Source of the DNA: Clostridia bacterium
GTDB taxonomy: Bacteria > Bacillota > Clostridia > Oscillospirales > Acutalibacteraceae
DNA length: 33,462 bases
Direction: 5' to 3'
Assembly (NCBI GenBank): GCA_017537245.1
Contig: JAFYLD010000016.1
Coordinates: forward strand, 1-33,462
In this document: positions 92-13,501 of the stretch, piece by piece
How positions within the stretch are numbered: position 1 is the stretch's first letter
Layout: each line of letters opens with the position of its first letter
Notes under the pieces: model-generated
Seen by the model: the letters and a program-made list of their open reading frames with translations, nothing else
Told to the model about the DNA's origin: nothing
The model's database searches: none
Program-made: the position numbers and the translations under genes

Positions 92-119
92 AAAAGAGAA
101 CCTCTAATGGTTCTCTTTT
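92..119. terminator. Intrinsic terminator between convergent genes
   Basis: An 11-bp perfect inverted repeat (AAAAGAGAACC, 92-102, and GGTTCTCTTTT, 109-119) with a 6-nt loop. On the minus strand the stem runs into a seven-T tract, so it ends the exported-protein operon. On the plus strand four T follow, so it may also serve the sigma factor gene. Confidence 0.85.
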
Positions 120-123
120 AAAA

Positions 124-1182
124 TTATGCGTATACTATTTTCCATTCAACCTTTAGTCCTGCATCATCAATAGATGATAACGCAGAAACACCGATTGCAA
201 AATCATCGCCCGACTTAACGTCAAACTCAACGTATGTACCTATGCTATCGGTTTTTAAGTAGTCTTCACCGGTATCGGTTGTATTACGTTGTTGAATAAT
301 GTAGTTCTTAGGATCAATAAGTTTATCAATGCTTAACATTGCCTTTTTTGCATCGCTAAGAATATAGAATCTAATCTTACCATCTTTGTTTGCTTTATAA
401 GAATAGAAATAACCTTGATCATTACCCTTTTTAATGGTTGTTGTAACTTTATCACCTGCAGAATCTAATACTTTAGGATTATCTTTGCTGCCCACAGGAC
501 TAGTAAACAAAATTGTAAAGCTCTCGGTTTTTGAACCGCTATTACCAATTTGGAAATCTATTTGCGCACTAGCAAGAAGGTCAGACACAACCTCAAATGA
601 CAACACACCATTTTTTGCAGTGTATTTTACGCCATTATAAATAACGTAAGCATTAGGACTGTTAATAGTCATAATCTTATTACTAACGCGAGCAATTTTA
701 TAATACTCAACAGTGCCCGCTTTTATATCAACAGTTACTACCTTACCCTTTGAATTCGGAGCGGTAACAAGTGGGTTATCGGCACTTGAAATTGGAGTAT
801 TATCGTCAGGGTTACTGGTAGTCGGTTGTGATTCAATATAGGTTGGAGGCAAATCATCCTCTTCGCTATTACTGCTATTGCTGCTGTTATTAGAGTTACC
901 GCCATCACCAATACTTACGATATTATTGCTAACAACTTCTTCGCTTGTAGTAGAACTACCGTAACTAGTGTTACCTTCGTCACTAGTTACGGTACTATCA
1001 ACTGATTCAGCATTGTTGGTTACATCTTCTGAATTATCGGTGTTATTATAAACCGCGCTAGAACTATCAGCTACGTCATTAGATGATGAATCGCTGTCAA
1101 CGACGTCACTACTACAACCTACCAAAACGCTTATAATCATAGTAAGCGCTAATATTAAAACAAATAATTTATTAAATTTCAT
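124..1182 (-). CDS. Ser/Asn-rich lipoprotein with two repeated beta-sandwich-like domains
   Basis: 352 residues, last gene of the six-gene exported operon. The N-terminus is a lipoprotein signal peptide with lipobox LVGC (Cys23), so the protein should be tethered to the outer face of the membrane. Residues 24-135 are a low-complexity linker of Ser, Asn, Asp, Thr and Glu, probably a wall-spanning spacer. Two related units follow, at about 135-230 (starting DNPLVTAP) and 234-350 (starting DNPKVLDS). Both read as beta-rich pre-peptidase-like modules. No enzyme motif and no LPxTG signal is present, and the only cysteine is the lipobox one. An ATG start follows a TAGGT ribosome binding site, 9 bp after the upstream gene. 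Function is unknown; a surface binding or scaffold role is inferred from the layout. Confidence 0.8.
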   Translation of the reverse strand: MKFNKLFVLILALTMIISVLVGCSSDVVDSDSSSNDVADSSSAVYNNTDNSEDVTNNAESVDSTVTSDEGNTSYGSSTTSEEVVSNNIVSIGDGGNSNNSSNSSNSEEDDLPPTYIESQPTTSNPDDNTPISSADNPLVTAPNSKGKVVTVDIKAGTVEYYKIARVSNKIMTINSPNAYVIYNGVKYTAKNGVLSFEVVSDLLASAQIDFQIGNSGSKTESFTILFTSPVGSKDNPKVLDSAGDKVTTTIKKGNDQGYFYSYKANKDGKIRFYILSDAKKAMLSIDKLIDPKNYIIQQRNTTDTGEDYLKTDSIGTYVEFDVKSGDDFAIGVSALSSIDDAGLKVEWKIVYA

Positions 1183-1191
1183 TTATTTTAC

Positions 1192-1575
1192 CTACTTTTT
1201 AATAATTTTAAGAAGATATTTACCAGTTTCAGCTTTTATATTTATAACAGGACTTCCGTCATAATAATATCCTTTCGGACATGATAATACGTAAAGTTTA
1301 TAACCATCTGTATTAACTGGTGGAAATGTTGCAACACCCTGTTTGTTAGAGCGCGCAGTAACACTAGAAGTTTTTTGCAATTTAAGTACTACACCTTCAA
1401 TTAAATTACCATCTTGGTCCGCAACAGTTACAGTAAATCTTGTTGGTTTTTTTGCTTCTTCAGTAATAGATTGTTGACTAGACGCAGCATTTGTTGCGGA
1501 TTCTTCGCCACAAGCGCATATAGAAAAGCTCAACAAAATCGCCATTACTAAAGCCAAAAATCTTTTTAAATTCAT
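1192..1575 (-). CDS. Small Ig-like (SpaA/carboxypeptidase-regulatory-like) lipoprotein
   Basis: 127 residues. It has a signal peptide with lipobox ICAC (Cys22), a short polar linker, then one beta-sandwich domain from about residue 47 to the end. The domain carries the signature VTVADQDGNLIEGVVLKLQ followed by NKQGVATF, typical of prealbumin-like, Cna-B or carboxypeptidase-regulatory folds. These are binding or structural modules, not catalytic ones. It is clearly paralogous to the next upstream gene (1586-1990) and to the N-terminal domains of the two large proteins of this operon. One cysteine, in LSCPKGYYY, lies in the mature domain. The stop codon of the upstream gene overlaps this gene's ribosome binding site (TAGGC), which suggests coupled translation. 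The ligand is unknown. Confidence 0.8.
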   Translation of the reverse strand: MNLKRFLALVMAILLSFSICACGEESATNAASSQQSITEEAKKPTRFTVTVADQDGNLIEGVVLKLQKTSSVTARSNKQGVATFPPVNTDGYKLYVLSCPKGYYYDGSPVINIKAETGKYLLKIIKK

Positions 1576-1585
1576 TTTTTGTTGC

Positions 1586-1990
1586 CTACTTCTTTGTTAT
1601 TTCAAAGGTGTATTCTGTAATACCGTCTTCAAGATAAATATAGTTAGTACCTACGTACTCGGTTTCGTAACCAGCTGGACAAACTGATAAAGAAATCTTG
1701 TGTTCATCGGTAATTTCTTCATCAAAAGTAGCAACACCGTTTGCATCGGCTAACGTTGGCTTACAAACGTCGGTGCAAAGTTGTACCATTACGTTTGGTA
1801 CTGGATCACCATTTTGATCAACAACTTTTACAGTAAACTTAGCAGTTTCTTCTTCAGACACTACGTCGTTATCACTTGCGGCAGGCTTGCTATTGTCGTT
1901 TGGCTTTTCTTCAGCAACTTCATCGTTGCCACATGCGCAAAAACAAAATACCATGCATAATGCAAGAATAAGAGCAATAATTTTTTTCAT
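1586..1990 (-). CDS. Small Ig-like lipoprotein with a cysteine pair in the domain
   Basis: 134 residues from the ATG at 1990. A longer reading from a TTG nine bases upstream is less likely, because the AAAGGAT site would abut that codon, whereas it lies 9 nt before the ATG. Signal peptide with lipobox FCAC (Cys20), an acidic and Asn-rich linker, then a single Ig-like domain with VKVVDQNGDPVPNVMVQL and ANGVATF. It is a paralogue of the gene at 1192-1575. The domain has three cysteines, two as CTDVC in the second strand and one in SVCPAGY. That is unusual for this fold and suggests a disulfide. The preceding gene encodes an exported thioredoxin-fold protein, so this lipoprotein is a plausible redox client; that is inference. 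Confidence 0.8.
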   Translation of the reverse strand: MKKIIALILALCMVFCFCACGNDEVAEEKPNDNSKPAASDNDVVSEEETAKFTVKVVDQNGDPVPNVMVQLCTDVCKPTLADANGVATFDEEITDEHKISLSVCPAGYETEYVGTNYIYLEDGITEYTFEITKK

Positions 1991-2008
1991 AAAATTCAAA
2001 TCCTTTTC

Positions 2009-2623
2009 TTATTTAATATCTTCAAAACTTTCAACGATTTTTTGAGTATAATCATCAGCAGAAAAATATGCAAACAAACTCTCAAAAACGCCTTCTTCAA
2101 TAACTGCGCCCATGTGAGAAAAAGCTACAGTACCATAACGGTCAATTACTACCGTTGTTGGAAATCCACGTATGCTAAAAGCAGTATTCCACGCTAAATC
2201 GCCCTTTATCAAAGGAAGTGATAGTTCATTTTGAACAGCATATTTTTGTATATCATTTTCTTTATCATCTGTTGGATTTATTGCCAAAACGGCAACGTCG
2301 TCGCTATATTTATCGGCAGCAGCCTGCAAATATGGAAATTCCATTTGACAAGGTCCACAATTAACGTACCAAAAATTTAGAACAATAGCTTTTTTTGACT
2401 TGAGCAATTCAGAAAAAACATACTCATTACCGTTAACGTCGGTCACAGTATAATCGCCCATTTTATCGCCTAGCGAATAACTACTTTCTGACAAAACCGA
2501 ATCACCAATAAGAACGTTAGTGTCCTTGTTTTCTACGATTTCATCTGCTCCGCAAGCGGTCAAAAGCACCAAACAAACACAAAGAAATGAAGTTATAAAC
2601 AATTTAAAAATCTTATTTTTCAT
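2009..2623 (-). CDS. TlpA/ResA-like thioredoxin-fold lipoprotein
   Basis: 204 residues from the ATG at 2623; a longer frame exists from an in-frame TTG but overlaps the upstream gene and lacks support. Lipobox LTAC (Cys24) anchors it outside the membrane. From about residue 50 it has the redoxin layout: LGDKMGDYTVTDVNG, then VLNFWYVNCGPCQMEFP with the CGPC active site (Cys89, Cys92), and cis-Pro155 in GFPTTVVID. Exported TlpA/ResA proteins usually reduce or isomerise disulfides in cytochromes or envelope proteins; no cytochrome gene is near. The thioredoxin domain is paralogous to that of the first gene of the operon, whose motif is CSWC instead. It starts 7 bp after the upstream stop and lies among lipoproteins with extra cysteines. 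Confidence 0.85.
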   Translation of the reverse strand: MKNKIFKLFITSFLCVCLVLLTACGADEIVENKDTNVLIGDSVLSESSYSLGDKMGDYTVTDVNGNEYVFSELLKSKKAIVLNFWYVNCGPCQMEFPYLQAAADKYSDDVAVLAINPTDDKENDIQKYAVQNELSLPLIKGDLAWNTAFSIRGFPTTVVIDRYGTVAFSHMGAVIEEGVFESLFAYFSADDYTQKIVESFEDIK

Positions 2624-2630
2624 AGGTCGT

Positions 2631-3881
2631 TTATTCTGCGTAACAACACATAAATAACCACGCAATTTCGTTATTTATATTTGTAAGATTTACACCGGAA
2701 TCATCTTTAAACATATAACCGTTGCTTTCAGGATTCCACCAATTAGCATAATCACCACGTTGTTGAATAATATACTTTAGATCCTCTGTCAAAGGATATA
2801 CGCCGTTATCTTCATCAACGTATTCAATGTACTCGAGCAAGCATTCAGAATAGCTTTCTCTCTTTATAAAGTTTTCATCTTCATCAAAGAAATATTTGCT
2901 TACACCAGAGCGATCAAGCATAGTTTTGAAGCAAGCTATATACTTACAATCCTTTGCAAGACGAACAAGTACGATAGGACCATTTTCATTATTTAGATGA
3001 TAGAAACCATCCTCTTTATTCAAAACAATCTTATAGGTGTCTGTTGAAGCGGTTAAATCGAATTCTTTAATTGATAGACTTGAAGACAAAGTATATTTTT
3101 CGAGATCAACCGTCTTTTTATAGATAGTCCAAGGTTCATCCTCGATAGTTTTTATAGGATCACCAAGACGATTTATACCTATAATACAATTTTTAACACC
3201 CTTTGCAGCATCAAGACCCAAAACGTATACAGAAGTACCCGTACCATTAGTTCCGATCATTTCTGCTTTAACGTTAATGGTAAATTTATTATCCTTAACC
3301 TCGGCGGTATTATTTTCTTGCACAAAATGAGGAGCGCCATAATAACCGATGGTCACGTTAGCATCGTCACAAATAGAAAACTCATAATTACCTGCCTGTG
3401 TAGGAGCAAACAAGAAGTAATTGCGACTGTTTTCTTTGAGCTCTGCGTAAGTAGAACCGCTGTTAATATAATAAGCATCAAGTTCCTTAGAACCAACCGT
3501 AAGTTTTTCTACATTTGATTTATTAACCATTAACGATACAATAACGTCAACTTCTGTTTCCTCTGGAGTAACCTCAAGTTCAGTATCATAGTGATACTGT
3601 GTTTCTGTATCAGTAAAGTTAAGCACTATACCATACGTGCCACTCTCGAGAGTTTTAGTAGCAATACCCTTGTCGTTAACAGCCTGCATAGCAACCTGCT
3701 TGTCGCCATCCATAAACTTAACAATAATACCAGAAGTATACGGATTACCAAAAGCATCTTTAACATACACGGTATAACCCTCTTCACCCGAACCGCAACC
3801 GATTAGGGTGAAAAGTGACAATGTAAGAAATGTTACTAAACAAATAGAAATTATTTTTTTACAAATACTCATACCAATCAT
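2631..3881 (-). CDS. Multidomain lipoprotein: Ig-like domain, PPC-like domain and a WLxxC module
   Basis: 416 residues. Lipobox LIGC (Cys29). Residues 35-118 form an Ig-like domain of the same family as the small lipoproteins downstream (YTVYVKDAFGNPYTSG, NDKGIATK). Residues about 125-245 look like a pre-peptidase C-type beta domain (YFLFAPTQAGNYEFSI). Residues about 280-416 match a module found twice in the next upstream gene: DGFYHLNNENGPIVLV, then YPLTEDLKYIIQQ, ending NEIAWLFMCCYAE. No catalytic motif is recognisable. Several cysteines lie in the mature part, including the CC near the C-terminus. It sits 23 bp after the membrane-anchored thioredoxin gene and 7 bp before the lipoprotein thioredoxin. 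Surface binding is a guess from the fold types. A second ATG three codons in is a possible alternative start. Confidence 0.75.
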   Translation of the reverse strand: MIGMSICKKIISICLVTFLTLSLFTLIGCGSGEEGYTVYVKDAFGNPYTSGIIVKFMDGDKQVAMQAVNDKGIATKTLESGTYGIVLNFTDTETQYHYDTELEVTPEETEVDVIVSLMVNKSNVEKLTVGSKELDAYYINSGSTYAELKENSRNYFLFAPTQAGNYEFSICDDANVTIGYYGAPHFVQENNTAEVKDNKFTINVKAEMIGTNGTGTSVYVLGLDAAKGVKNCIIGINRLGDPIKTIEDEPWTIYKKTVDLEKYTLSSSLSIKEFDLTASTDTYKIVLNKEDGFYHLNNENGPIVLVRLAKDCKYIACFKTMLDRSGVSKYFFDEDENFIKRESYSECLLEYIEYVDEDNGVYPLTEDLKYIIQQRGDYANWWNPESNGYMFKDDSGVNLTNINNEIAWLFMCCYAE

Positions 3882-3904
3882 TCTTTCACGTAAGAAATAA
3901 ATTT

Positions 3905-6712
3905 TTAAGCGCCGAGATGATCATAGTAGAAGCAAATCTTTAACCATGAGTTTTCAACGTCTTCGAAAGTATATTTATTCATAAGTTGTTGCAATATTTC
4001 AGCAAGTTCTTCGTCAACCACAACGCAACCATCGAGCTCTGTTCTTGACTTGTCCATCTTACCTAAATACTTTTTAATATCTTCGGTAAGATCTTCGCCA
4101 TCACCGTGATAACGACCTGCAAATACATCGTCTATTTGATATATTTCAGCGTTTTGGTCAAATTCTTCGCCCCAAAGTTTTTCTAAATACTCTGTGGTTT
4201 TTTCAACGTCGTTATTGTTTTGCTTTAAGTAAGCTAGTATCTCACCGTCTGTTTCTGACTTACTAAAGTCAAAACCACCCATATTAATCATTTCGGTAAT
4301 TGACTGACTAAATACTGTTGTAATACCGGTGAAATCAGCATAAATCAAGCTGCCGCCTTCACTATCATAATATTTGCCGTCCTTTAATACAGGAGTAATA
4401 CCACCAGAAATGATATCATACATTGCGCTACCAGTAGCGTCAGTATCATAAGTGAAGTAACCAGGCGCAGCTAAACGGAATAGTTTATAAGTAGCACCAA
4501 GATATTCAACGTCATAGTTAATGGTACCGGTTGCATATACATCCCAGAAAGCCATATTGATATAATATGGTTTACCCGCTTCCATGTAATATACCATTGA
4601 GCAGTTGTTAGGATCGGTGTACATTCTTTCATCATGCTCGTAAGTATAAATTACTTGTGCGTTTTGATCAAAAATCCAAGCATCTATACCGTCTTGATAA
4701 TCACTCTTTGAAGTAAAACGATATACACCAGACTGTGTAGGAATAAACTCTGACAAGAAACCTCTTGGCATAATTACACGGTCATAGTAGAAATTATTGG
4801 TTGCAACGTTTTTACCAAGTGTTGTCTTATATGCACAGAAAGGTGCTAAACCTCTAATAGGGTCTTCAAGTTGAGAAGCGCCAGGGCCGTAAACTTGATA
4901 ATATTTGCACATCTTTAGCCACTCGTTTTCATCGTCCTCAAAACCGGCTACACGAGCAACCTGCTTAAGCATTTCTGCAAGTTCTTTATTAACGGTACAA
5001 AGACCGTGTATCTTAGCGTTTGACGCATAAGAGAAATACTGCACCATGCCTAGACCTTTGTCCTCTTTCTTATCATATAGGCTTACACCCTTTTCATCAG
5101 CTTCACCATTCATAACAAGATTTTGAACTGAATCTTCCTCATTAAATGGTGTATAACCCATGAGATCAGCCAAAAGAAGTGGGCCGTTTGCGCTACCTAC
5201 ATGATAATAACCATCGGCTTCGTTATATACAACGTTTACATAACTATAATTTTCATCTTCATCAGCAGTTGCAACATATCGTGGCAAATATGTAGCAACG
5301 TTAATTTGTGACTTATCTACAACGCGTAGATTATCAACATAAACCGTATCGTCGCCTTCTGCGCCACTTTCATCCTTCATATAACAAAGTGCAACTTCAT
5401 AAACGCCATCTTTATCTGCAACGCATGGATAACACGTTTGCCATTTTTCAGAAGTGGATACACCAGAAATCTGGAATACGTCTTCACCATCAACAATTAC
5501 GTACATTATATCGCATGCAGCTTCAGAAGAAGCAAGATAATCAAAGCCTATTGCCTGTCCTGCTTTAAGTTCAACGTTAGCATAAAGAATAGCGTAAGAA
5601 CCATCGATTTCTTTGTTTGATGCATATACACATGAACGACCGTTCTTTTCGCCTATGATAAACGGCCAAATGTACTTAGCATCTTCGCCATCTTTTTCGG
5701 CAGAAAATTCAACCTTTATATCGCCTGAATTTATAGCGTTTGCAATTTCATCACTGCTTGGCATATCATAGGTTGGCTCAACTTGTGAAACAAGATCACT
5801 AATTCCGTTTTCGCAAAGTTTTTGCTTATATTTTTCTGAAGTGAAATGATCAAATGCGCATACCCATGGGCGTTTGCTTGTAATAGCACCAGATTCAACT
5901 ACACAAATAACGCCGTATTGATCAACAAAGATAGAAGTAGGATAGCCTGATACACCAAAAGTATTTGCCCAAGAAGATGGACATGAAACCATTGGGAAGG
6001 TATATCCATACTGTTTTTGGAAACCATCAACCGCATTATTATCTTCCATTGGATTTAGAGCGATAATTTCGATTTCGTCGCTATAATCTTTGTAAAGTTC
6101 TTGCATTAATGGGAATTCTTCAAGACACCAGCTACAAGTGGTGTACCAGAAGTTAAGAACAACTAATTTCTTTGTCTTTAAAATTTCTGCGAGATTTATT
6201 TCAGTACCATCCGGCTTCATAACGGTAAAATCATACATTACGTCACCAAGGCCAAGTGTTGTAGTAGAAATATCTGCATCGGTAATCAAAGAAGAAGTAA
6301 GAATAATATTCTTTGTAGTATCATCAAACTTGTATGACTCTTCTGCCTTATAACCTTTTGGAACAGGTGATAAAACAATTTTATAATCTGAACTCTTATC
6401 AAGGTTAAAAGTTGAAGTACCTTTATCGTTTGTCTTGCAATAGTCGATCATATCATCGCCATTATAAATATAAACGTCGATACCTGACATCGCCATGCCG
6501 CCCATTGATTTTACGTTAACGGTATAAAGGGTGTCACCATTTGGTCTTTCAAAATCATCGGCGCTACCGCTGTCGCTACTTCCGCCAAACGGAACGAAAA
6601 TGATTGTAGCAGCAATCGCAAGTACAAGCACTGAAGCAATAATTATGCAAAGAATTTTCTTTGCCTTTATAAACTCCAAAATCTTGTTAAAGAAAGCTTT
6701 TAATTTTTCCAT
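3905..6712 (-). CDS. Membrane-anchored multidomain thioredoxin-fold protein
   Basis: 935 residues from the ATG at 6712, chosen because AGGAGG lies 5 nt upstream; the frame stays open 15 codons further but without a site. First gene of the exported operon. Residues 19-44 are a single membrane anchor with lysines before it, so the rest should be outside. In order: an Ig-like domain (62-135, NVKSMGGMAMSGIDVYI); a TlpA-like thioredoxin domain (155-300) with FWYTTCSWCLEEFP, active-site Cys193 and Cys196, and cis-Pro258; a jelly-roll-like domain (330-466) with a second CxxC (CYPC, 427-430); a WLxxC module (500-608); a PPC-like domain (643-740, IPTQSGVYRF); and a second WLxxC module (778-934). No named family covers the whole protein. 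It may act as an extracellular thiol oxidoreductase with binding modules; substrates are unknown. Confidence 0.8.
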   Translation of the reverse strand: MEKLKAFFNKILEFIKAKKILCIIIASVLVLAIAATIIFVPFGGSSDSGSADDFERPNGDTLYTVNVKSMGGMAMSGIDVYIYNGDDMIDYCKTNDKGTSTFNLDKSSDYKIVLSPVPKGYKAEESYKFDDTTKNIILTSSLITDADISTTTLGLGDVMYDFTVMKPDGTEINLAEILKTKKLVVLNFWYTTCSWCLEEFPLMQELYKDYSDEIEIIALNPMEDNNAVDGFQKQYGYTFPMVSCPSSWANTFGVSGYPTSIFVDQYGVICVVESGAITSKRPWVCAFDHFTSEKYKQKLCENGISDLVSQVEPTYDMPSSDEIANAINSGDIKVEFSAEKDGEDAKYIWPFIIGEKNGRSCVYASNKEIDGSYAILYANVELKAGQAIGFDYLASSEAACDIMYVIVDGEDVFQISGVSTSEKWQTCYPCVADKDGVYEVALCYMKDESGAEGDDTVYVDNLRVVDKSQINVATYLPRYVATADEDENYSYVNVVYNEADGYYHVGSANGPLLLADLMGYTPFNEEDSVQNLVMNGEADEKGVSLYDKKEDKGLGMVQYFSYASNAKIHGLCTVNKELAEMLKQVARVAGFEDDENEWLKMCKYYQVYGPGASQLEDPIRGLAPFCAYKTTLGKNVATNNFYYDRVIMPRGFLSEFIPTQSGVYRFTSKSDYQDGIDAWIFDQNAQVIYTYEHDERMYTDPNNCSMVYYMEAGKPYYINMAFWDVYATGTINYDVEYLGATYKLFRLAAPGYFTYDTDATGSAMYDIISGGITPVLKDGKYYDSEGGSLIYADFTGITTVFSQSITEMINMGGFDFSKSETDGEILAYLKQNNNDVEKTTEYLEKLWGEEFDQNAEIYQIDDVFAGRYHGDGEDLTEDIKKYLGKMDKSRTELDGCVVVDEELAEILQQLMNKYTFEDVENSWLKICFYYDHLGA

Positions 6713-6772
6713 AATTCCTCCTGAAAGAATAACAAAAATTACTAAGGCACAATACACCTAATTATTCACATT

Positions 6773-6802
6773 ATTTTAACATATAAAAAGCCCTTTCGTC
6801 AA
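6773..6802 (-). promoter_or_regulatory. Sigma-A promoter of the exported-protein operon
   Basis: On the minus strand, TTGACG (6797-6802), an 18-bp spacer and TAAAAT (6773-6778), placed about 60 bp before the first start codon. I see no riboswitch or operator repeat between it and the AGGAGGAATT ribosome binding site. Confidence 0.75.
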
Positions 6803-11926: not shown

Positions 11927-13204
11927 ATGAATATTATTTTTCAAACATTAGGTTGCAAAGTTAATCAATACGAAACCGAAGCGATGCGCGAGGCGTTACA
12001 ATCGCTAGGCCACACCTGTGATAAAAACAAGTCAATTGATGCTGTTGTTATTAACTCATGCACCGTAACCGCAGAAAGCGATAGAAAAACTAGACAACTT
12101 GTGCGCCGTATGAGACGCGAACATCCAAACGCTATTATTGCGCTTACGGGCTGTATGGTTCAAGCTTTTCCTGATGATGCAAAACAATTAACAGAGGCAG
12201 ATATTGTTATTGGTAACAGAGACGTTAAAAAGGTTATCGAAGCAATTAAGTATTATGACAATAATCGTATTTTTTGCGTAGAAGAACACAAAAACGGCGA
12301 TTTATATAACACTATAGGTCTTAGCAGTTTTAACGAACGAACACGCGCTTTTATGAAAATACAAGATGGTTGCGATCGCTTTTGTACCTACTGTATTATT
12401 CCTTTTGCACGTGGTAGAGTTCGTTCTCGCGCGATCGATGATATAAAGCAAGAAGCACAAAGACTTGCAAACAACGGATTTTGCGAGATTGTTTTAGTCG
12501 GCATTAACCTTACGTCATACGGTAAGGATGAAAACTTTAATCTTTGTGACGCTATTGACGCTGTTTGCGAGATTGACGGAATTAAGCGCGTTAGATTAGG
12601 CTCTCTTGAACCTGATCATATCACTGATGAAATGCTAAATAGAATGAAGGCTCAACCCAAGTTTTGTCCTCAATTTCATTTATCATTACAATCTGGTTGC
12701 GACGAAACCTTAAAGCGCATGAACAGACATTATGACAGCGCTTTTTATGAAGATTTGGTAAATCGAATTCGATCTACGTTTGATAATGCTGCAATAACTA
12801 CCGATATCATGGTTGGATTCGCGGGCGAAACACAAGAAGAATTTGACAAAAATCTAAAATTTGCGCAAAAAATCCAGTTTGCAAGAGCGCATATTTTCGC
12901 TTATTCGCGTCGTAATGGTACGGTTGCGGCAGGTTTAAAGGCACAAGTAAATAATGCCGAAAAACAACATCGCGCACATTTAATGGCAGATGCAACAAAG
13001 CAAACCGAAATAGAATTTTTAAATACGCAAGTTGGCAATATCTATCCTGTGCTTTTTGAAACGCAAGAAAACGGCCTTTGGGACGGATATACACCAAACT
13101 ATACCAGAGTCGTCGTTGATACACAAAAAACTCTTACAGGTGAAATTCATAACGTTTTAATCAAATCGGTGAAAGATGATTACTGTATAGGCGAACTAAT
13201 ATAA
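11927..13204 (+). CDS. mtaB: tRNA N6-threonylcarbamoyladenosine methylthiotransferase MtaB
   Basis: 425 residues. MtaB adds a methylthio group to t6A37 of tRNAs reading ANN codons, giving ms2t6A. The N-terminal methylthiotransferase domain starts NIIFQTLGCKVNQYE and carries the cluster cysteines Cys10, Cys45 and Cys76. The radical SAM motif GCDRFCTYCIIPFARGR supplies Cys149, Cys153 and Cys156. The C-terminal 60 or so residues form a TRAM-like RNA-binding domain. GCKVNQYE with CTYCIIPFARG is the MtaB (YqeV) version, not MiaB or RimO. It is the only large protein-coding gene on the plus strand here, transcribed alone from its own promoter and closed by a terminator just after the stop. Confidence 0.95.
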   Translation: MNIIFQTLGCKVNQYETEAMREALQSLGHTCDKNKSIDAVVINSCTVTAESDRKTRQLVRRMRREHPNAIIALTGCMVQAFPDDAKQLTEADIVIGNRDVKKVIEAIKYYDNNRIFCVEEHKNGDLYNTIGLSSFNERTRAFMKIQDGCDRFCTYCIIPFARGRVRSRAIDDIKQEAQRLANNGFCEIVLVGINLTSYGKDENFNLCDAIDAVCEIDGIKRVRLGSLEPDHITDEMLNRMKAQPKFCPQFHLSLQSGCDETLKRMNRHYDSAFYEDLVNRIRSTFDNAAITTDIMVGFAGETQEEFDKNLKFAQKIQFARAHIFAYSRRNGTVAAGLKAQVNNAEKQHRAHLMADATKQTEIEFLNTQVGNIYPVLFETQENGLWDGYTPNYTRVVVDTQKTLTGEIHNVLIKSVKDDYCIGELI

Positions 13205-13231
13205 AAAGACGGGGTTTTACCCCGCCTTTTT
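13203..13231 (+). terminator. Terminator of mtaB
   Basis: Stem AAAAAGACGGGG / CCCCGCCTTTTT around the loop TTTTA, with one A-C mismatch, ending in a T tract directly after the mtaB stop. Confidence 0.88.
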
Positions 13232-13253
13232 TAAATTTTTTAATTAAAAATCC

Positions 13254-13282
13254 TTGACAAAATAACGCGTTTGGTATATTAT
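13254..13282 (+). promoter_or_regulatory. Promoter of tRNA-Leu
   Basis: Consensus TTGACA (13254-13259), a 17-bp spacer and TATTAT (13277-13282), about 10 bp before the mature 5' end of the tRNA. Confidence 0.85.
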
Positions 13283-13291
13283 ATTTTAGAC

Positions 13292-13378
13292 GCCGCTGTG
13301 GTGGAATAGGCAGACACAAGGGACTTAAAATCCCTCGATAGCGATATCGTACCGGTTCAAGTCCGGTCAGCGGCACCA
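13292..13378 (+). tRNA. tRNA-Leu, anticodon UAA
   Basis: 87 nt including an encoded CCA end. The acceptor stem GCCGCTG/CAGCGGC is perfect. The anticodon stem AGGGA/TCCCT encloses a CTTAAAA loop with anticodon TAA, reading UUA and by wobble UUG. The long variable arm (CGAT-AGCGAT-ATCG) is the class II feature expected for leucine, and the T arm has GGTTCAAGTCC. A tRNA for UUA fits the AT-rich codon use. Confidence 0.97.
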
Positions 13379-13381
13379 GTC

Positions 13382-13418
13382 GAGAGCCTCGACACGCAAC
13401 TCGCGTGCTGAGGTTCTT
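13382..13418 (+). terminator. Terminator of tRNA-Leu
   Basis: A 16-bp imperfect stem (13382-13397 with 13403-13418) and loop AACTC, with one mismatch and a few G-T pairs, followed by CTTCTTTTTT. It begins 3 nt after the CCA end. Confidence 0.85.
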
Positions 13419-13470
13419 CTTTTTTATTATTTCAACCTCGCGTTTAAGGTTGGTTGTGAACACTCGCACC

Positions 13471-13501
13471 AATACCCATCCTCTTATGAGGATGGAGTAT
13501 T
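13471..13501 (+). terminator. Second hairpin downstream of tRNA-Leu
   Basis: Stem AATACCCATCCTC (13471-13483) with GAGGATGGAGTATT (13488-13501), one bulged A, a TTAT loop, then ACTTTTTT. It may be a backup terminator or the end of a short transcript. No gene was recognised between 13419 and 13470. Confidence 0.55.

Follow-up and report, generated by a model that had tools for sequence, protein, structure and literature searches.

A conserved six-gene block with two ResA-like thioredoxins in Clostridia, and FTM as its candidate membrane partner

ResA is known as a reductase, and ResA-like proteins ordinarily take their electrons from the CcdA/DsbD family. How thiols are reduced outside the membrane in anaerobic Firmicutes without CcdA is, to our knowledge, an open question. 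In this study, we analysed a block of six genes, P1 to P6, in a 33,462-nucleotide stretch of DNA from a Clostridia bacterium (the window), together with related blocks and a protein encoded near many of them, a NapH-like ferredoxin/thioredoxin fusion referred to here as FTM. The closest described system is CcdA-Etrx-MsrAB2 of Streptococcus pneumoniae, which, as outlined in PMC3914529, has, like the block, two surface-anchored ResA-like thioredoxin proteins; these pneumococcal surface thioredoxins receive electrons through the membrane (PMC3914529, as outlined there). By analogy, the block may work likewise. It differs from the pneumococcal system, however, in that the 22 operon genomes searched have no CcdA/DsbD_TM match over the cut-off, the likely donor being the FTM of relatives; in that no MsrAB was recognised near it; and in that its thioredoxin genes are accompanied by those for four more surface proteins. 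Since no CcdA match reached the cut-off, we do not assign the block to the CcdA-Etrx type.

Two other groups invite comparison. ResA, StoA and TlpA share with the block the thioredoxin domain and the CxxC, and ResA also the EFP after the active site, whereas the thioredoxin proteins of the block, P4 and P6, score below the cut-off of the ResA model NF002854, are fused to or lie beside prealbumin-like domains, and come with no match to cytochrome c assembly. The NapH-like extracytosolic electron transfer systems, as summarised in PMC8238504, combine, as FTM does, a membrane Fe-S relay of the PF12801 type and a redox domain on the outside, which is FMN-binding in those systems and a thioredoxin in FTM. 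Among the matches listed in a search of the open-licence literature, titles and abstract openings held nothing on this operon or on a NapH-like protein with a thioredoxin domain.

The block and its conservation in relatives

The block comprises six open frames on the minus strand (124-6712), in the order P6 to P1, with the following features:

3905..6712, minus strand: P6, 935 aa; N-terminal membrane anchor, prealbumin/Ig-like domain and ResA-like thioredoxin (CSWC)
2631..3872, minus strand: P5, 413 aa lipoprotein; prealbumin/Ig-like domain and a Pfam-less domain
2009..2623, minus strand: P4, 204 aa lipoprotein; ResA-like thioredoxin domain (CGPC)
1586..1990, minus strand: P3, 134 aa lipoprotein; single prealbumin/Ig-like domain with a CxxxC pair
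1192..1575, minus strand: P2, 127 aa lipoprotein; duplicate of P3 lacking the two CxxxC cysteines
124..1182, minus strand: P1, 352 aa lipoprotein; low-complexity Ser/Asn/Thr stretch and Pfam-less C-terminal region
6773..6802, minus strand: promoter-like site of the sigma-70 kind, TTGACG-18-TAAAAT, upstream of P6; recognised by consensus only, 10/12
92..119, minus strand: terminator-like site downstream of P1; 11-pair stem

A reading of the sequence alone had described six genes separated by 7-23 bp, between one promoter and one terminator, that encode five lipoproteins and one membrane-anchored protein. The six-gene minus-strand block is real, and its leaders, lipobox-like cysteines and the hydrophobic segment 11-47 of P6 agree with five lipoproteins (P1-P5) and a membrane-anchored P6. 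With ATG starts, the gaps from P6 to P1 are 32, 7, 18, 10 and 9 bp, and the range given earlier holds if P5 begins at an earlier start, which shortens the 32 bp gap to 23 bp. The terminator-like site at 119-92 has the longest stem of the eight found (chance mean 4.1, sd 2.1); promoter-like sites in the region number 27 against 26.8 by chance, i.e. no excess. Elsewhere in the window, 13292-13378 is a tRNA-Leu(taa) that overlaps a 103-aa frame (13161-13472), which is therefore probably no gene.

Relatives of the block were collected by a P6 search of public genome contigs, which gave 25 loci, 19 of them from sheep, goat, roe deer, water buffalo or yak gut samples and six with no host given. Three loci (L035, L038 and L053) end inside the block. 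In 20 of the remaining 22, the order P6-P5-P4-P3-P1 is kept on one strand, so that the co-occurrence predicted from the window was borne out; the exceptions are L048, where P1-like sequence lies in the next gene, and L049, which has neither P5 nor P1. That the block is kept in relatives shows that the six frames of the window are not a chance run. P4 relatives of about 285-300 aa were often labelled P6 in the locus scan, since their two domains match P6 better; an extra N-terminal domain is present in 15 of 24 aligned P4 copies and missing from that of the window. A separate P2 occurs in the window, L033 and L036 and is cut off in L035, and L045 has a second P3-like gene. P2 is a local, lineage-limited duplicate of P3.

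The distribution of the block is patchy. Among 200 genomes of the window's family, 63 match P6 at E <= 0.001, yet the match is full-length only in the window's genome, G153 and G176; nearly all the others are matches to the thioredoxin domain, and the other two members of the genus, G066 and G180, have no P6 match. In 394 genomes of the order, P5 is matched in 18 at E <= 0.001 and in 14 at E <= 1e-60. A diverged P5 relative is found in three genomes of one genus (L078:9768-11081, L079:9380-10708 and L080:9288-10610), where the stretch read has neither P6 nor P4 and the genome lacks an FTM match, and P5 is thus not always dependent on the relay.

Domains, cysteines and possible clients

In each of P1 to P5, a lipobox-like Cys closes the hydrophobic leader. 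P6 lacks a lipobox and shows a single strong hydrophobic segment (residues 11-47); a Cys occupies the lipobox column in 12 of the 26 rows of its alignment, whose members are 51-80% identical to the window's protein. Judged by their leaders, P4 and P6 would be anchored at the surface by lipid and by the membrane segment, respectively. The two thioredoxin domains named in the sequence-only reading were confirmed by Pfam, as P4 (CGPC) and P6 (CSWC) match AhpC-TSA at E 4.7e-14 and 5.9e-14. Their best PDB matches are ResA (E 4.7e-21), although NF002854 gives 70.6 bits for P4 and 81.1 bits for P6, both below its curated cut-off of 170. The EFP that follows the active site is invariant in the P4 and P6 alignments, and ResA has the same residues there. 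All six proteins stay below the cut-off of every NCBIfam model, and nothing in Pfam is over cut-off for P1, P3 or P5. The earlier view of the locus as an extracytoplasmic thiol block whose genes are kept together is supported.

Chains 2yp6 and 4hqz, which bear the name 'thioredoxin family protein' and which we take to be Etrx proteins, match P6 at about 1e-11. This lends some weight to surface repair of the Etrx-MsrAB kind, in which a relay would feed a methionine sulfoxide reductase or peroxidase encoded elsewhere, as the pneumococcal surface thioredoxin-fold lipoproteins Etrx1 and Etrx2 do according to the outline in PMC3914529. However, Pfam recognised no Msr among the six proteins of the window or among 20 neighbours of relatives, and we consider this explanation distinctly unlikely.

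Profile comparison supports a small domain in P2 and P3 that recurs at the N-terminus of both P5 and P6: P3/P2 gave E 1.4e-11 with P6 and E 3.9e-15 with P5, values that are partly raised because signal peptides were aligned too. The earlier claim that four proteins share one domain therefore stands, whereas its label is less secure: Pfam sees the domain weakly and passes P2 alone, as a SpaA prealbumin-like fold (23.5 bits, cut-off 23.1), and the domain may be Ig-like or prealbumin-like. In P6, a region with invariant Cys427 and Cys443 is followed by two stretches that both end in WLKxCxYY. Profile comparison aligned the first of these with P5; the second was likened by eye only. The Pfam-less domain of P5 is common to P6 and to P7, an additional gene product with a P5-like domain. 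With the P5 profile, a PDB sequence search returned nothing credible (best E 0.19). The P1 profile matched calnexin at 8e-4, a low-complexity type of match that we do not consider credible.

The cysteines divide the block into possible clients and others. The CxxC is present in all 26 rows of P6 and all 24 of P4. In P6, Cys427, 443, 602, 896 and 927 are likewise found in 26 of 26 rows, and Cys572 in 25; in P5, all 26 rows have Cys344 and 25 have Cys409, the one exception being a row that is cut short. Of the 27 rows of P3/P2, 23 have both cysteines of the CxxxC pair and four have neither; none has just one. By contrast, the window's P1 has no Cys besides that of its lipobox, and elsewhere in the P1 alignment no Cys is conserved (the best column reaches 11 of 22 rows, the window's not among them), and P2 has one Cys beyond its leader; neither can therefore hold an internal disulfide. 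P3, P5 and P6 are thus possible clients, P1 and P2 are not, and the proposal that the block looks after disulfides of the neighbouring surface proteins in general had to be given up.

P7 is encoded in 19 loci and missing from the window, L033, L036 and L049. The block shares with cellulosome components the dockerin, found on six of the 19 P7 proteins of relatives; Pfam detected no dockerin in the window's block. Dockerins as such occur in 21 of 22 operon genomes, eight of the 22 having just 0-5 dockerin matches. At L090:4280-4990, a 236-aa frame with FWASWCTPC and a dockerin match lies beside a 342-aa thioredoxin frame (L090:3210-4238) and is a candidate cellulosome-docked thioredoxin. The thioredoxin that appears in a paper on dockerins (PMC5301203) is described there as an expression tag. 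Prealbumin/Ig-like domains on four proteins and dockerins on some P7 proteins would suit a module for adhesion or fibre binding whose thioredoxin folds serve mainly a structural purpose. Yet the invariant CxxC of both thioredoxin families, and the association of the block with FTM described below, make such a module very unlikely.

Missing redox families and the candidate partner FTM

The search for redox families covered 22 operon genomes: that of the window, G153, G176 and the 19 belonging to the 25 loci once L035, L038, L050, L052, L053 and L056 are set aside. Completeness figures are at hand for three of the 22, at 79.6% (the window's), 85% and 98%. DsbD_TM (PF02683), the one family used here to represent CcdA/DsbD, was over cut-off in none of the 22, with the control positive in 10 of 14 and weak sub-threshold pieces in G204 and G207. 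We considered a 242-aa frame beside a 168-aa thioredoxin in L097 as a CcdA and rejected it, as PF02683 has no match in its genome, G206. VKOR (control 3/14), DsbB (control 6/14) and Cytochrom_C_asm (PF01578; control 9/14) were also found in none of the 22 genomes. The last result bears on cytochrome c maturation by true ResA proteins, to which the ResA similarity of the thioredoxin domains might point; it nearly refutes that reading, which we regard as extremely improbable.

The absence of DsbB and VKOR from the 22 genomes bears in the same way on oxidative folding, i.e. that P4 and P6 put disulfides into surface proteins. In support of this idea, several non-CxxC cysteines of P5 and P6 are invariant or nearly so, and 20 of the 26 P6 rows have CSWC in place of CGPC at the active site. 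Against it stand the missing re-oxidants (the Dsb search covered DsbB and VKOR), the closest matches of the thioredoxin domains, which are to a known reductase, and the ferredoxin motifs of the associated membrane protein. The sequence-only reading had offered disulfide making as one role of the block; this is the less likely direction, and oxidative folding as a whole is in our view unlikely.

FTM is a protein of about 484 aa with a NapH-like Fer4_5 membrane part (PF12801, E 1.6e-14 in the single copy scanned), two 4Fe-4S motifs and a C-terminal thioredoxin with the motif FWGTWCTPC. One hydrophobic segment lies between the ferredoxin motifs and the thioredoxin in seven of seven copies, which by hydropathy would place the two on opposite sides of the membrane. 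FTM was found in all 21 of the operon-bearing relatives searched (G153, G176 and the genomes of 19 of the 25 loci) at E <= 5.4e-137; the copy of G205 is in two pieces, each on a contig of its own. It lies within 20 kb of the block on the same contig in 14 of these 21 (G153, G176, G201, G203, G204, G205, G206, G208, G209, G211, G212, G213, G217 and G218). Where no FTM is close, the block is on a short contig of 10.6 to 18.4 kb in G207, G210, G215 and G216 (L042, L045, L051 and L054), whereas G200, G202 and G214 have FTM unlinked despite longer contigs. G200 and G202 have blocks that keep the window's flanking genes; their FTM lies about 100 kb off or on a different contig. With five order genomes added (G463, G464, G526 and G549 linked, G532 not), linkage holds in 18 of 26 relatives, counting once each the pairs of handles with identical FTM coordinates (G206/G238, G208/G476, G209/G520, G215/G571 and G216/G566).

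FTM takes two positions relative to the block: downstream and convergent in 10 genomes, down to a distance of 64 bp in L082, and upstream and divergent, about 16-17 kb off, in eight. That linkage persists in two arrangements argues for a functional tie with the block. In the second arrangement, an oligopeptide ABC transporter intervenes in L055 and L057 (Pfam) and in L085 and L086 (BLAST), and from gene sizes we surmise the same in further loci. Between this transporter and the protein described next, L085:3276-10544 and L086:8638-15822 hold a frame of ~2400 aa and then one of ~437 aa. FTM is adjoined by a membrane protein with a C-terminal CTECIGLG-type motif (CxxC), recognised by NCBIfam CD1871A in the two copies scanned and by BLAST similarity in all 10 of the FTM-bearing loci compared in this way. 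The absence of a partner gene, as claimed earlier, is thus true of the window and does not extend to relatives, which often have FTM and this CxxC membrane protein nearby. At L034:17336-19128, L094:1405-3200 and L095:211-1967, an ECF-type sigma factor (NCBIfam in L034, BLAST in L094 and L095) and a lipoprotein-like protein of 399-412 aa adjoin FTM, lying between it and the block in L034; they are possibly a regulator pair.

Across the 394 order genomes, P5 and FTM occur together in 10, P5 alone in four, FTM alone in two and neither in 378 (Fisher 2.9e-15; by genus, 4/6 against 0/162, p 4.7e-7), values that overstate independence because of shared descent and because the threshold for P5, E <= 1e-60, was set after seeing the list. 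At this line, G394, G429, G504 and G545, with P5 matches at E <= 0.001, count as lacking P5; in G429, one of the two with FTM alone, a short contig carries frames resembling P7 and P1. For most order genomes at most four candidates per genome were scored, so misses are possible; the family search for FTM scored at most seven. That FTM is simply common in the family was rejected: of 200 genomes, operon-bearing G153 and G176 alone have the fused form at E <= 1e-60, and 22 others match over the ferredoxin part only. At least two of these, at G162:C105:1664-3106 and G174:C31:14240-15596, pair a NapH-like frame with a thioredoxin frame of its own next to it, which looks like FTM in unfused form. 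The window's own assembly (79.6% complete) has no FTM match. A DNA search of that genome with a relative's FTM region also returned nothing but, having no positive control, carries no weight.

The composition of FTM also raises the possibility of electron outflow, in which electrons from the cytoplasm would leave by way of FTM and the surface thioredoxins and end on extracellular disulfides or thiol shuttles. This would be extracellular electron transfer and not the upkeep of proteins. FTM does join ferredoxin motifs to an outer thioredoxin, and NapH-like relays are tied to respiratory reductases elsewhere, as summarised in PMC8238504. However, no terminal reductase was recognised among 20 Pfam-scanned neighbours of relatives, and four of the six products of the block have no thioredoxin domain by Pfam, and we hold outflow to be improbable.

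A candidate surface thiol relay

We favour, with a little more confidence than doubt, the reading that the block and FTM form a surface-anchored thiol-exchange relay that feeds the cysteines of P3, P5 and P6. The NapH-like 4Fe-4S relay of FTM, the sole donor candidate found in a search of CcdA-like families that covered PF02683, would carry electrons from the cytoplasm to its own extracytoplasmic thioredoxin, perhaps helped by the small membrane protein with the terminal CTECIGLG-type motif, and FTM would thereby keep the ResA-like thioredoxin domains of P4 and P6 reduced. P4 and P6 would in turn pass electrons to cysteines in P3 (CxxxC), in P5 and in the C-terminal region of P6, such that disulfides of the surface modules are reduced or reshuffled and the modules stay folded. 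The relay is probably reducing, or isomerising, a direction that we infer. The block itself is conserved, the thioredoxin domains and conserved cysteines are present, and FTM is associated with the block in relatives; the contacts of FTM with P4 and P6, the substrates, and the presence of FTM in the window's organism are inferred. Against the relay count the lack of an FTM match in the window's assembly, the unlinked FTM of G200 and G202, the P5 relative that stands without thioredoxin genes, and the cysteine-poor P1 and P2.

More tentatively, and with a rather low chance of being right, it could be that herbivore-gut Clostridia swapped CcdA/DsbD for a NapH-type ferredoxin-thioredoxin fusion and spend its electrons on co-inherited, Pfam-less and sometimes cellulosome-docked surface proteins, making extracellular thiol chemistry part of fibre feeding. 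If so, this chemistry would either reduce disulfides of bound proteins, whether from plant or host, or let electrons flow out. Altogether, the gene set is defined and has candidates for both donor and substrates that lend themselves to work in vitro, and surface thioredoxins fed by FTM, if this holds true, would represent a little-known control of sulfur bonds outside the cell.
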